A stretch of DNA of 20,375 nucleotides from a virus. The DNA lies in the IMG/VR virus record IMGVR_UViG_3300037585_003884, positions 1 to 20,375 of that record. One strand, given 5' to 3'. A program made the position numbers and the translations under genes. Below, one piece after another: positions 533 through 4,632 of this stretch; within the stretch, counting starts at the first letter, position 1, and each line of letters begins with the position of its first letter. The notes below the pieces were generated by a model, which ran no database searches, had not been told where the DNA came from, and worked only from the letters and a program-made list of their open reading frames with translations.

Positions 533-1300
533 TCACTTTCCGTTCATCAGTTCGTTAAAGGCTTTATCTACATCACTCGTTGGCTTGCTATACGAAGTAG
601 TCTCACTAGAGCGGGATTCCGCGGACTTATTGCCGCACAATTGCTCATCAAGAATACTATCAATCTGCTCTGAGGTGTGACGCTCAAAGAGAGAAGCAAA
701 GTCTGGCATGCGATCGAGGAGGGCAGGGATCGCTTCTGTATCTGCCAGAAGAGGGGAAGTATTACGCCTCATCTTCATATTAGTTTGAGGATATGCGCCC
801 GGGGTGGTGGGCTTGGTATATGTTAGCGTGATATCCGTGCCTTCGTTGGCATCCGTGACATCACCGTATTCTGGATCAAGAATGTAACCAAGAAGAAGTT
901 CATACGCCTTCTTTCCATATCCATACACCTTGATTCCTTCATCTTCTCGGCCGCGGAGGACCACTGGTGAGAAGTAACGAGCACGTACGAACAGAGACTT
1001 AGCGAGCTTCTTGCTCTCTTCATCGTTGTTGTCCACACCTTCTCGCCATACAGAGGAGGCAAATTCACAAATTGGGCATGACTCTCCGTAGTTACGCTTA
1101 GGGCAAAGAATACCGCCCCGATGTTCTCCAACATTGTAGTGGAAATACATCTCCTTTAGGGGATCACCATCTGATGTCGGTACAATCCGAATATCTTGGT
1201 CACCTTCGTCGGGCTTAAACCAGACTGAGTCCCTGTTATCGCCACCTTCACCGCGTAGTGAAGCCAACTTCTTTCTCATTAGTTCCATATTAATAGACAT
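533..1300 (-). CDS. gp32: Single-stranded DNA-binding protein, T4 gp32-like
   Basis: A 255-aa protein beginning MSINMELMRKKLASLRG. T4 gp32 coats single-stranded DNA at replication forks and recruits replication and recombination proteins. The zinc-binding block of the core domain is visible: His54 or His60, then Cys66-x8-Cys75-x2-Cys78 (LCPKRNYGESCPIC), in the order His-Cys-Cys-Cys as in T4. The basic N-terminal segment fits the cooperative-binding region. The end, DVDKAFNELMNGK after a Ser/Thr-rich linker, fits the protein-interaction tail, although it is less acidic than T4's. The central part (VRARYFSPVVLRG, KVYGYGKKAYELLLG) matches marine gp32 proteins as I remember them. I chose the ATG at 1300 because AAGGAG (1309-1314) sits eight bases before it. 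An in-frame ATG at 1351 would add 17 residues but lies in a leader hairpin without a ribosome-binding site. It is the last gene of the leftward replication set and is followed by a terminator. Confidence 0.9.
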   Translation of the reverse strand: MSINMELMRKKLASLRGEGGDNRDSVWFKPDEGDQDIRIVPTSDGDPLKEMYFHYNVGEHRGGILCPKRNYGESCPICEFASSVWREGVDNNDEESKKLAKSLFVRARYFSPVVLRGREDEGIKVYGYGKKAYELLLGYILDPEYGDVTDANEGTDITLTYTKPTTPGAYPQTNMKMRRNTSPLLADTEAIPALLDRMPDFASLFERHTSEQIDSILDEQLCGNKSAESRSSETTSYSKPTSDVDKAFNELMNGK

Positions 1301-1359: not shown

Positions 1360-2223
1360 TTACTCTTGATCGAACTTGTCAAGAGTTTTTTGTTGTTGTA
1401 TTGCGTTAGTGTGGGCAACGCAGAACCCAAAATCTGGTAAATTTGTTTCGTAAATCGCGTAAGAAATTTTACGATAGGCATTCCTGGGTTTTGTTTTTAG
1501 GATGTCTACCAAACGCTTATGCAACCCTGTTTCACTCTCCAACCGCTTTTCGTTTATACACATATAATAACATAATTCGCGCTCGGTGTCAAGGTCAAAT
1601 AGCCACTTTTCTTCAAGTCTTTTCATATCTAAAAGGGACACTGCTCTTATCTTATTGATATCGCTTGGCTTTGACACATTTCCAATGTGTGGCTCGGTAT
1701 GTGCAAAATAATTTAAGTAATGCACACAAGAATAGACCGTCTCATTAAGAATACTGTAGTACTCTTTTAGATTGATCTCACTGTGGACTCTCTCAATATT
1801 CTCGTTGGAAAAAATAGTTAGGTTTTTAAAAAGGCCTGATCGTGCATATTCCTGTAGCACTCCGAAAGTCGTGTTCTCCACTAATCTTGGCACGCCTGTG
1901 AGCAGTTCGATATCCGGCTTGATGTAGAAAACATCCAGTTGTTTCTCTCTGATCTGCTCTAATACCCCAAGTGTATAAATTGAACTCAGTGAGGAGCCCA
2001 CTACAAAAACCTGCACGTGGTCTTTTAGATTCTTTAAAAACTTTTTAACTCGGGGGGCGTTCTTTTCGTATTCTTCGGGGGTATCGTACGTATTTAACTT
2101 AAACTGCGTCTTTGAGTTCTTCTCGACCTTGCTGTTCATGGTATATACCTCGTATTGCGGCAGATCTGCAAACTTACTTGCGATTGCAGACGCAGCATTG
2201 CCAATTCCGATCACAGAAATCAT
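1360..2223 (-). CDS. Divergent FtsZ/tubulin-like protein
   Basis: A 287-aa protein of unknown function whose layout follows FtsZ. Residues 2-13 (ISVIGIGNAASA) sit where FtsZ has IKVIGVGGGGN (loop T1). Residues 24-30 (YEVYTMN) match the strand FtsZ writes as VEFIAINTD. Residues 71-83 (QVFVVGSSLSSIY) lie where FtsZ has the GTPase signature GGGTGTG, but here it is GSSLSSI. Residues 98-103 (VFYIKP) match VGVVTKPF, and 119-146 match the FtsZ segment ending VIPNDRL. A helix and a loop with GNVSKPSDINKIRAV (181-195) stand near the T7 loop. The degenerate signature suggests altered or lost GTP binding. The ATG overlaps the polymerase stop codon (ATGA), with GGGAG upstream, so the two are probably translationally coupled. 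Phage tubulins such as PhuZ and TubZ organise DNA or phage particles, but this protein cannot be assigned to either. A generic Rossmann-fold protein is the alternative. Confidence 0.6.
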   Translation of the reverse strand: MISVIGIGNAASAIASKFADLPQYEVYTMNSKVEKNSKTQFKLNTYDTPEEYEKNAPRVKKFLKNLKDHVQVFVVGSSLSSIYTLGVLEQIREKQLDVFYIKPDIELLTGVPRLVENTTFGVLQEYARSGLFKNLTIFSNENIERVHSEINLKEYYSILNETVYSCVHYLNYFAHTEPHIGNVSKPSDINKIRAVSLLDMKRLEEKWLFDLDTERELCYYMCINEKRLESETGLHKRLVDILKTKPRNAYRKISYAIYETNLPDFGFCVAHTNAIQQQKTLDKFDQE

Positions 2224-3419
2224 AGGTTTAGGTCTCCCAAATCAAAATAGTTTTGGCCGGCCTTAAGATTGACCATGAATGAGTCCAATTTGTTATTTGA
2301 AAAGACTTCTTTAATTGCCGGCAAAAGAGGGCGGTCCTCATCAGCCAAGTCAATTACCAATTCATCATGTACAATATGTGAAATGTGGCTTTTCGTGTTT
2401 TCTAGCATTTTGTTAATCTCAATTGCCCGGTCGATAACCAGATCCGAAGTTGTGCTTTGGATAAGGTAATTGAATGCTTTTCTTTGTTCCACTTTAATGC
2501 GCCTTCCGAAGATGGTCTTAATATAGCCATCTTTGTAATGTTTGTCAAGAATCAAATTGCGATCATATAGATCGCTCTTGATAATCGTAGAATCAGGATT
2601 GTACAACCACCCAAAAAACAAAGTCTTTGCTTCGTCGCGCGTAGGATTGCGTATATCATTTGATTTGTTGAACACGTTTTCAATGTTCCATTGGTGAATG
2701 TCTTCCTGCGGTTGCGGTTCGCCGAGAAGAGACAGCACCGTCCTTACCTCTGCTCCGTTATAGTCCAATGAAATAAACCAATCGTTTTTAGGCTTTACAA
2801 CCTTTCTGAAATCCTTTTTCATCGTTAAGATGGGGAAAGACCCGGGAGAGGTTGTTAAGCGGCCTGTGACGGTACCAAAGAGGTTGTAATCAATATAGTT
2901 AGCGCCGGAGATAATCTTCTTGATGCCGAGCCTGGAGTTAGTGGCAGTGAACATGCTCTTACAGTCTGAGGCATCGATGTTTAGTGGTCGATATCTGATG
3001 TCATGGATGAGTTTCGAAGCCTCGCACAGAAAATCGTAGTTATTTGGCTTTGTGGTGTTTTCAAATACATGTTGAGTTATCTTATTCTTTATCTCGCAGA
3101 ACTGTAGCAGGGCGTCCTTGGGAATGAGATCGAAGATGCAGTGGTCGTTGAAATCAATCTTTGCTATTGTAAAAGATTTATAAAAAGCGTTCATTTTACG
3201 CACAGTTGCCTCGTACTCTTCAAGTAAATCCGAGGGTGCAGCTTCCTTGAGAGACGACCCGCCAGAATAAAGCCATGCGTATTGTACATCGGAATCTCTT
3301 ACCGAGCCAGTGTACTTCCAAGTTCTGAGTAGATCGGCCGGCATATGTTCAAAGTGAAGTTCTCCATCTTTATAAACACCAACACACTCTGTTTTATCAT
3401 CAAGTGTTTGAAAGTACAT
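2220..3419 (-). CDS. Compact family A DNA polymerase
   Basis: A 399-aa DNA polymerase of the Pol I/T7 family. The palm and fingers motifs are all present. FGTVTGRLTTSPGS (181-194) is the TGR primer-template motif. Motif A is SLDYNGAEVR with catalytic Asp219 and steric-gate Glu224. Motif B is RDEAKTLFFGWLY with Arg261, Lys265, Phe269 and Tyr273. GYIKTIFGRR (298-307) and FNYLIQSTTSDL (316-327) follow. Motif C is HIVHDEL with His351, Asp352 and Glu353. Phe269 is the residue that in E. coli Pol I (Phe762) disfavours dideoxynucleotides. The protein is far shorter than Pol I (928 aa) or T7 polymerase (704 aa). I see no 3'-5' exonuclease domain, and the stretch from motif B to GYIKT is only about 26 residues, so the fingers look trimmed. 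It overlaps the gene before it by 20 bases and the next by 4, with GAGGCGG just before its ATG. It is probably the replicative polymerase, working with the gp32-like SSB; that role is inferred. Confidence 0.9.
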   Translation of the reverse strand: MYFQTLDDKTECVGVYKDGELHFEHMPADLLRTWKYTGSVRDSDVQYAWLYSGGSSLKEAAPSDLLEEYEATVRKMNAFYKSFTIAKIDFNDHCIFDLIPKDALLQFCEIKNKITQHVFENTTKPNNYDFLCEASKLIHDIRYRPLNIDASDCKSMFTATNSRLGIKKIISGANYIDYNLFGTVTGRLTTSPGSFPILTMKKDFRKVVKPKNDWFISLDYNGAEVRTVLSLLGEPQPQEDIHQWNIENVFNKSNDIRNPTRDEAKTLFFGWLYNPDSTIIKSDLYDRNLILDKHYKDGYIKTIFGRRIKVEQRKAFNYLIQSTTSDLVIDRAIEINKMLENTKSHISHIVHDELVIDLADEDRPLLPAIKEVFSNNKLDSFMVNLKAGQNYFDLGDLNL

Positions 3420-4632
3420 TTTCCGCCTCTTCTTTACTTATCTTATCACGGTAAAGAAGATCTGTCAAGGAGCCACTGTAATCATATGTTTTTCCAATGA
3501 TGGACTCAAACAGGCCGACCGCTTCTGCGTGGCCCTTTAAGGTCGCGAGTTTTAATGAGTCCCTGATAAGATGCTGCTTTTCATTTTCTGTCAGCGGCGC
3601 GCTCTTTTCTTCCATCAGTCGGATTTTCATGTAGTTCTCAAGGCAAAATCTCTCTGTATAGAGCGTGTTGAACTGACTGAGGCTATACTGCTTGGGTCGT
3701 ACAATATTGTTTCTAAGTGTGCCGTCACCGCAAAGCTCAACATGTATATAATCTGTTTTAATGCGATCATATAACTCTAGAAGTATTGTTTTAAAATTTT
3801 CATAGTACGTAATGTGGGCTGGTGTGTAGGCGCTAGCCAACACTGCGGAAGTGCTGCGGTAATTTGAATTTGGGGCGGTCTGCGCATATTGGATCATCTC
3901 TGGGGTACCAATGTCCGCCACAAGTCTCCAAGGGTTGTTTGAGTCCACAGAGAATCCGTAAGAACGGCAAGCGTTCAGATAGAACTGCCAGTTTTTGCTT
4001 TCTTTAAAATTCTTGATCTTCATTTCGTCGCTCGCGGCTGACTCGGTAGAGACCTCAATTACAAGACCAGTCGCAGTCATCGGACAGTACCGACTCTTTA
4101 TAAACCCGGGATACGTAAAAGGTAGCTCCTTCGTAGACGTTTCTAAAATTCCCATGAGATGAAGCATAAATCCATCAAAATCTTTAAATCTCAAGTTCCT
4201 ACCAGAGAAGGTCTTCTCTATTGACTGTTTGTTTTCTGCTGAAAAGCTTCTGTATAGTGTTCTCGGGCTTTCGTATGCCCTTTGCACCTCTAGCACAGAT
4301 AAAAATGGGTCGGTAGTTTTGATTTGTCCGGACATGGCTTTCTTTTTAAATTGTTGTGAGAGTTCTCGGAAAGCATGAGCAACGAACCCCACTGCCTGGA
4401 AGCCAGTCCCCAACTTGTTGGTTTGATCAAGAGAGCCCATGGAGGTCGACGGCAGATCTAATTCAATCGGCACGTAGCTGTAGCTCACTCGGCCATACAA
4501 ATACTTTTCTGCTAATTGAAAATCTTTTAGATTCTCGTATTCCGGTTCCAGAATATCATTTCGGTATATGAGTGATTTTTGATAGAGCGCTTTCGTGCTC
4601 TCATTGTTACCTTTTTTATAAAATATAGACAT
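3400..4632 (-). CDS. Unknown 410-aa protein upstream of DNA polymerase
   Basis: A 410-aa soluble protein with no signal peptide or membrane segment, preceded by AAGGA nine bases before the ATG. Conserved-looking blocks are FKDFDGFMLHLMGIL, a hydrophobic-aromatic block FTYPGFIKSRYCPMTATGL, and NPWRLVADIGTPEMIQYAQ, followed by a mostly helical C-terminal half with several charged helices. I recall similar proteins from marine phages annotated only as hypothetical or virion structural proteins. Position allows two readings: it directly follows the large baseplate gene (27-bp gap), which suggests a virion role, but its 3' end overlaps the polymerase gene by 20 bases, which suggests coupling to replication. 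I looked for DxE-type exonuclease motifs that would make it the missing half of a split polymerase and did not see them. Function unassigned. Confidence 0.75.
   Translation of the reverse strand: MSIFYKKGNNESTKALYQKSLIYRNDILEPEYENLKDFQLAEKYLYGRVSYSYVPIELDLPSTSMGSLDQTNKLGTGFQAVGFVAHAFRELSQQFKKKAMSGQIKTTDPFLSVLEVQRAYESPRTLYRSFSAENKQSIEKTFSGRNLRFKDFDGFMLHLMGILETSTKELPFTYPGFIKSRYCPMTATGLVIEVSTESAASDEMKIKNFKESKNWQFYLNACRSYGFSVDSNNPWRLVADIGTPEMIQYAQTAPNSNYRSTSAVLASAYTPAHITYYENFKTILLELYDRIKTDYIHVELCGDGTLRNNIVRPKQYSLSQFNTLYTERFCLENYMKIRLMEEKSAPLTENEKQHLIRDSLKLATLKGHAEAVGLFESIIGKTYDYSGSLTDLLYRDKISKEEAENVLSNT

Follow-up and report, generated by a model that had tools for sequence, protein, structure and literature searches.

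TubA, a protein of 287 amino acids encoded on the minus strand at 1360..2223 of a stretch of phage DNA of 20,375 nucleotides, is predicted to adopt the tubulin/FtsZ fold, with both of its domains and the central helix H7, and lacks the GTPase signature. On the strength of the model and its structural matches we regard the assignment of the fold as highly secure. The protein is best called a pseudo-tubulin, a minimal and degenerate representative of the tubulin/FtsZ superfamily. The stretch analyzed, to which we refer as the window, is the complete source virus record of 20,375 bases. The phage tubulins PhuZ and TubZ are GTPases that move or center DNA. The gene for TubA, with this predicted fold but not the GTPase motif, is fixed in the replication operon of abundant uncultured phages, which also encode an intact tubulin, TubB; the combination may point to a viral cytoskeleton, so far unstudied, that is associated with DNA replication. 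The interpretation that we favor, although tentatively, since the function is inferred, is of a non-hydrolyzing pseudo-tubulin that, at the replication machinery of the phage, links or caps a TubB filament.

Predicted structure of TubA

An earlier note on this DNA had called the protein FtsZ/tubulin-like, and had asked for structure prediction and a fold search. We modeled TubA with AlphaFold2 using 34 sequences. The best model has a mean pLDDT of 83.5 and pTM = 0.84; pLDDT values for the five models were 83.5, 82.8, 72.9, 67.4 and 66.5, three being weaker. The model comprises an N-terminal Rossmann-like domain, the long core helix H7 (residues 152-175; 1699..1770, minus strand) and a C-terminal sheet in a single chain. 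Its elements come in the FtsZ order that the note had proposed. Strand S1 and the T1 loop lie at residues 2-13, and the strand that had been identified as YEVYTMN is found at 24-30 (EVYTMNS). GSSLSSI occupies the T4 position at 76-82, VFYIKP (98-103) ends a strand at 95-102, SNENI, which had been likened to the NDRL of FtsZ, lies at 139-143 following a strand at 134-139, and the T7-like loop comes after H7.

Foldseek in the PDB gave TubZ as the best match (E = 1.1e-11), followed by FtsZ (2.2e-11), and all 50 matches listed are tubulin-superfamily chains, with TM scores of 0.57-0.70 by query length. VIA gave Z = 21.2 for CetZ, 20.0 for TubZ and 19.6 for FtsZ over 255-266 of the 287 residues, with 10-14 per cent identity; for the 50 matches listed Z lies between 18.8 and 21.2, and they cover model residues 1-279. 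In BFVD the top two matches are phage proteins named FtsZ (TM = 0.72) and cell division protein (0.63), followed by two unnamed entries (0.57 and 0.47), after which the score falls to 0.34. The first of these, A0A6J5RW92 from an uncultured Caudovirales phage, is the closest viral fold match to TubA (E = 1.7e-13), but unlike TubA it is longer (452 aa) and is named as a GTPase. Prediction and fold search thus give tubulin/FtsZ for both domains, in agreement with the original call.

Part of the superfamily structure is not seen. The stretch separating H7 from a strand at 191-199, where H8 would be looked for, contains no helix in the model, with a mean pLDDT of only 69 over residues 181-190. Nor is there a long helix between the strands at 191-199 and 216-224, the location of H9 in FtsZ. 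As judged from the model, helices H8 and H9 have apparently been lost.

No sequence profile detects the kinship. The PF00091/tubulin profile has no match in the window, nor in the TubA protein up to E = 1, and finds none of 34 TubA members (E = 0.1) or of 6 members of a second TubA clade (E = 10). Phrog_4733 (tubulin PhuZ) does not match TubA up to E = 1. Nothing in Pfam or NCBIfam comes near its cut-off with TubA, and the best PHROGs match is marginal (E = 0.092) and of unknown function. Comparison of the TubA profile with those of TubB, FtsZ and PhuZ by hhalign gave nothing significant, TubB being aligned from T1 onward with E = 0.054. The relationship of TubA to the tubulins therefore rests on predicted structure. 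In whole-profile comparisons the best local match to both FtsZ and TubB is the T1 loop, with marginal scores; those for FtsZ (29.8) and TubB (32.5) are exceeded by the highest-scoring of 60 shuffles (31.1 and 36.2, respectively), and PhuZ is at the shuffled mean.

Motifs and a possible ligand site

Relatives of TubA were collected from IMG/VR. The single TubA sequence found 151 loci (best 80 of 151 used), the TubA alignment at least 476 (best 80 used) and a second-clade query 37; the three sets overlap. These loci provided 113 distinct complete proteins, whose lowest pairwise identity is 42 per cent and whose mean identity is 61 per cent; the following counts are based on them.

The T1 loop position (residues 6-13, GIGNAASA; 2185..2208, minus strand) is defined by the alignment of the 113 sequences, together with the strand (2-7) and the helix (9-16) that the model places there. 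Gly8 is invariant (113/113) and Gly6 almost so (112/113), and in the second clade the loop reads GIGEAGCN or GIGDAGCN, similar to the T1 loop of FtsZ. At the T4 loop position (residues 76-82; 1978..1998, minus strand) the GGGTGTG of FtsZ is replaced by GSSLSSI, and the note had asked whether all homologues lack the signature. They do: the pattern [SAG]GG[TSG]G[SAT]G is found in none of the 113 proteins, and in 69/69 TubB sequences that served as a positive control. The variants in its place include GSSFSAN, GASLSSI and GSSYSSN, with Gly76 retained in 113/113 and Ser80 in 110/113.

The T7/H8 position (residues 176-190; 1654..1698, minus strand) is short in model and alignment, with no NxD and no H8. 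NxD is absent from residues 176-195 in all 113 proteins, and with it the NxDxxD synergy loop; TubB has FDSKDLETC at the T7 place in 69/69. In FtsZ neither the active site nor the longitudinal contact is complete without the T7 motif and H8. We considered whether residues 188 and 191 might be the T7 acidic residues, and dropped the idea because the model has a strand at 191-199. Although inferred without an assay, it is probable that TubA cannot hydrolyze GTP by the known mechanism and is no canonical GTPase.

Some positions that might hold a nucleotide are strongly conserved, i.e., Asn140 (113/113), an aromatic residue at 156 (112/113) and Asn160 (113/113), the last two lying in H7. TubA 134-167 can be aligned to FtsZ 159-193 (T6-H7), albeit weakly, 8 of 200 shuffles scoring as high; the same test does not recover this register with TubB or PhuZ, for which 124 and 129 shuffles out of 200, respectively, reach the score. 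By sequence alone the T1 loop also gives a weak, fold-consistent register, of TubA 1-16 with FtsZ 12-27. In the alignment of 134-167, Asn140, the aromatic 156 and Asn160 fall opposite the T6 Asn and the H7 aromatic and Asn that line the guanine site of FtsZ. The three positions may line a guanine site in TubA, although support for the register is weak.

The conservation of positions 76, 80, 140, 156 and 160 raises the possibility of selection on a ligand pocket, and this is the case for a first alternative to a non-hydrolyzing subunit. TubA might assemble by itself as an active tubulin, its Ser-rich loop contacting the nucleotide phosphates in a novel manner, and form its own filament for the phage DNA. 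Such a protein would have to manage without the Gly-rich T4 loop in 113/113 members, without NxD at T7, and, if the model is correct, without H8. We consider this unlikely.

TubA shares with FtsZ and CetZ a fold match over its whole length, and with FtsZ the weak registers at T1 and T6-H7, but differs from both in its low identity (9-13 per cent in the VIA matches listed), in lacking GGGTGTG and the NxD of T7, and in the apparent loss of H8 and H9. FtsZl1 and FtsZl2 have been described as diverging further than any other families of the superfamily, and occur beside conventional FtsZ; FtsZl2 retains T1, T4, T6, T7 and H7, while in FtsZl1 the T6-H7 part is unidentifiable and the earlier elements align (PMC2875224). 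TubA shows nearly the reverse, having kept H7 and lost the T4 and T7 motifs.

The C-terminal tail of TubA (residues 277-287, QQKTLDKFDQE; 1363..1395, minus strand) is modeled with low confidence. It is TLDKLEQE-like in most relatives, and is absent from residue 280 on in 24/113. The sequence QxxTLDKF resembles a clamp-binding peptide. We set aside a sliding-clamp role for the tail on the grounds that it is missing in those 24 proteins and that no clamp was matched in 7 records. In these searches, with PF02768 and PF02916, each family was represented by one domain, no control genome exceeded the cut-off for the gp45 family, and distant clamps could escape detection.

The replication operon and the distribution of TubA

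The TubA reading frame begins with ATG and overlaps by 4 bp that of a family A DNA polymerase domain of 399 aa (2220..3419, minus strand; PF00476, E = 2.7e-19), as the earlier note had observed. The next gene downstream encodes a gp32-like single-stranded DNA-binding protein (SSB; 533..1300, minus strand), matched by PF08804 (E = 5.9e-15) and phrog_1192 (E = 4.2e-23); the searches were run on 533-1303, and the start was set at the conserved MSINMEL. Upstream of the polymerase and overlapping it is a 410-aa protein with no convincing family match (3400..4632, minus strand). A protein of 410-420 aa, as here and at L286:3383-4641, stands directly before the polymerase; counting the window, it occurs in 119 of 143 records. 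Elsewhere in the window the same strand carries, among others, genes for a tail sheath and for a baseplate-hub protein (PHROGs). A small protein with a hydrophobic N-terminal stretch and a Thr-rich tail follows the SSB gene, at 173-451 in the window and at 140223-140456 in the 195.7-kb record G021.

This arrangement does not vary. Among 189 TubA records (the window included, and some contigs counted twice) a polymerase is present in 177, and the overlap is exactly 4 bp in 177/177, with the sequence ATGA in 166, GTGA in 10 and TTGA in 1. The other 12 have a contig edge no more than 155 bases upstream. SSB lies downstream on the same strand in 185/189, and in the remaining 4 there is a contig edge within 162 bases. 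The polymerase or SSB is thus missing only where a contig ends. Counting each distinct TubA DNA sequence once (n = 132), the polymerase is present in 124, with the 4-bp overlap in 124/124, and SSB in 128, on the same strand in 128/128. The placement between polymerase and SSB that had been noted in the single sequence therefore holds throughout. From this fixed position it is very likely that TubA is made together with both proteins. A role in positioning DNA or replisomes is an inference from gene order.

Outside IMG/VR we found no relatives. A tblastn search of 50,697 phage records with TubA found none at E = 0.01, and none was found in phage records with a second-clade TubA at E = 1. An alignment-based pattern scan of contigs from 84,980 bacterial and archaeal species gave no TubA relative. 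The polymerase/SSB neighborhoods of Flavobacterium, Microcystis, Lysinibacillus and Bacillus phages contain no annotated tubulin, although folds are not covered by this comparison, nor is the corresponding stretch of SBSphiC, which carries no annotation; five hypothetical proteins from these neighborhoods gave no tubulin match in a Pfam scan, and one compared with TubA gave nothing. Within the family the median dN/dS is 0.068 over 108 close pairs, indicating purifying selection; values for TubB, SSB and the polymerase are 0.043, 0.050 and 0.033, respectively. The existence of at least 476 related loci, the low dN/dS and the 4-bp overlap in 124/124 lead us to conclude that TubA is a real gene.

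The unvarying position of TubA is also what would be expected of a replication accessory that has a tubulin fold and no cytoskeletal role, for example a processivity or SSB-loading factor for the short family A polymerase. That polymerase is only ~400 aa in length, its similarity to family A falls in the palm part, and the two sliding-clamp families were unmatched in the 7 records, which are weak negatives. However, this explanation accounts neither for the retention of the tubulin fold nor for a second tubulin encoded by these phages, and we think it a rather unlikely one.

A second tubulin and the proposed function of TubA

The second tubulin, TubB, was found first in a TubA-bearing record of 130.8 kb. 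It is a protein of 378 aa in which T4 reads GGGGGTGSS and the T7 place FDSKDLETC, found at L143:1303-2439 and in relatives L151-L230, and at G021:181057-182193. It matches PF00091 just above the cut-off (33.9 bits against 33, and 35.6 in another search), and its profile matches E. coli FtsZ with E = 1.1e-7 (hhalign); against phrog_4733 (PhuZ) it reaches only E = 0.077. A conserved acidic N-terminal tail of ~65 residues has a median charge of -17. TubB thus belongs to the same superfamily and genomes as TubA, but is longer, with the T4 and T7 motifs and the acidic tail. Its AlphaFold2 model is poor (pLDDT 53.2). The gene directly adjoins one for an SbcC-like protein in L143, with one gene between them in G021. 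IMG/VR holds 174 TubB relatives (best 80 of 174 used); in the 50,697 phage records only a weak match was found, in two records (Bacillus phage G). E. coli FtsZ as query finds 26 phage records, with 37-99.6 per cent identity. A PF00091 match in record G016 (11.2 bits, below cut-off) lies in another frame, of 1094 aa, and was not counted as a tubulin.

TubA and TubB occur in the same phages. In a first test of 19 TubA records only one had TubB, the other contigs not clearly reaching its place. Of 20 TubB records, picked for length among the best 80, nine contain TubA. Where at least 45 kb is available downstream TubA is present in 8/8, at 38.0-41.4 kb after TubB, and in the ninth record (G036, 195 kb) it lies 41.6 kb after TubB, provided that the record is treated as circular. 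None of 60 further TubB loci has 45 kb downstream by contig ranges, as read by eye. Records G020 and G027 are identical in the genes compared, leaving about seven independent cases of TubA with TubB, plus G036.

The reading that we prefer, a non-hydrolyzing adaptor or cap for TubB, would operate as follows. TubA would be synthesized alongside the polymerase and SSB, and would be located at the phage replication complex. Its retained tubulin surfaces would bind a TubB filament terminally or laterally, making TubA a non-hydrolyzing adaptor or cap, and guanine nucleotide might be held as a structural ligand. The TubB filament would thereby position or separate the replicating phage DNA. The parts of this proposal are not equally supported. 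That TubA works with TubB we think quite possible, without being convinced; that it links TubB to the replisome is more doubtful. The broadest form, a two-tubulin cytoskeleton in a large group of uncultured phages, with TubB as a GTP-driven filament and TubA as a GTPase-less, replisome-side subunit that nucleates, caps or tethers it, is speculative and on balance unlikely; TubA would then be a specialized, non-cycling tubulin of viral origin in direct connection with DNA synthesis. If TubA does join TubB to the replisome, it would reveal how DNA synthesis can be coupled to a filament by a virus, and would provide a natural pseudo-tubulin with which to probe the fold without hydrolysis.

Some observations weigh against the partnership. 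The two genes are ~40 kb apart in separate blocks, and there is neither a direct link nor physical data. For 36 record pairs the mean identities are 60.4 per cent for TubA, 92.5 for TubB, 56.9 for the polymerase and 76.3 for SSB, and a tight heterodimer would be expected to show more co-variation than is implied by 60.4 against 92.5 per cent. The gap may be due in part to the choice of records by TubB similarity.

The rapid divergence of TubA relative to TubB and SSB would also fit a host-facing protein. Phage inhibitors of FtsZ are known, and a non-hydrolyzing FtsZ-like subunit could cap filaments, such that TubA would cap or poison the host FtsZ ring and infected cells would cease to divide. 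Yet the neighboring polymerase diverges as fast, and the fixed position in a replication operon is not that expected of such a protein; we regard this as improbable. Lastly, an ordinary dinucleotide-binding Rossmann protein, e.g., an NADP-dependent oxidoreductase, is suggested by a weak match to Pfam F420_oxidored (PF03807; 14.9 bits, the cut-off being 21.6, E = 0.041; matched by 6/34 members at E up to 0.1, best 0.0085), but the match is restricted to residues 2-40, tubulins are what H7 and the second domain resemble (Z about 20), and among the BFVD matches listed viral oxidoreductases and epimerases have TM scores of 0.35 or less compared with 0.72 and 0.63 for the named FtsZ-like entries, so that the fold leaves this very hard to credit.

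Among known systems, TubZ (plasmid/phage partition) and PhuZ (phiKZ gp39) resemble TubA in being phage- or plasmid-encoded proteins with the tubulin fold that are tied to their DNA. Unlike them, TubA sits in an operon with polymerase and SSB. It differs further from PhuZ in having no T4 signature, in its length (287 aa compared with 327 aa for phiKZ PhuZ) and in having no PhuZ-family match; the PhuZ of phage RAY carries the T4 signature (PMC10299810). Two distinct FtsZ/tubulin representatives among jumbo phages are given by a survey (PMC7824862). A literature search limited to titles and abstract openings, with most subscription papers outside its range, found among the papers listed no description of a signature-less phage tubulin or of such a pair.

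Further genes of these phages are seen in G021. Besides TubA and TubB this record encodes a UvsX-like recombinase, DnaB-like helicase, exonuclease and primase, as well as ribonucleotide reductase and the SbcC-like protein near TubB. A search of 7 records for the phiKZ shell protein, bearing on the idea of a phage nucleus, gave no match and had no positive control, and is uninformative. G021 has two DNA polymerases, the short family A enzyme beside TubA and a second of 1156 aa at 126781-130248 (phrog_405), the start of which appears by eye to be PHP-domain-like (DnaE-type). At 120457-121554 the start of a reading frame resembles IMP dehydrogenase, again by eye only; IMP dehydrogenase is the entry to GTP synthesis. 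Finally, a near-identical leader, MKI[ST]KxxLKxIIKEE, opens three proteins, two in G021 (182219-182698 and 179064-179729) and one at L143:2436-2819, and has the look of a common signal for targeting or processing.
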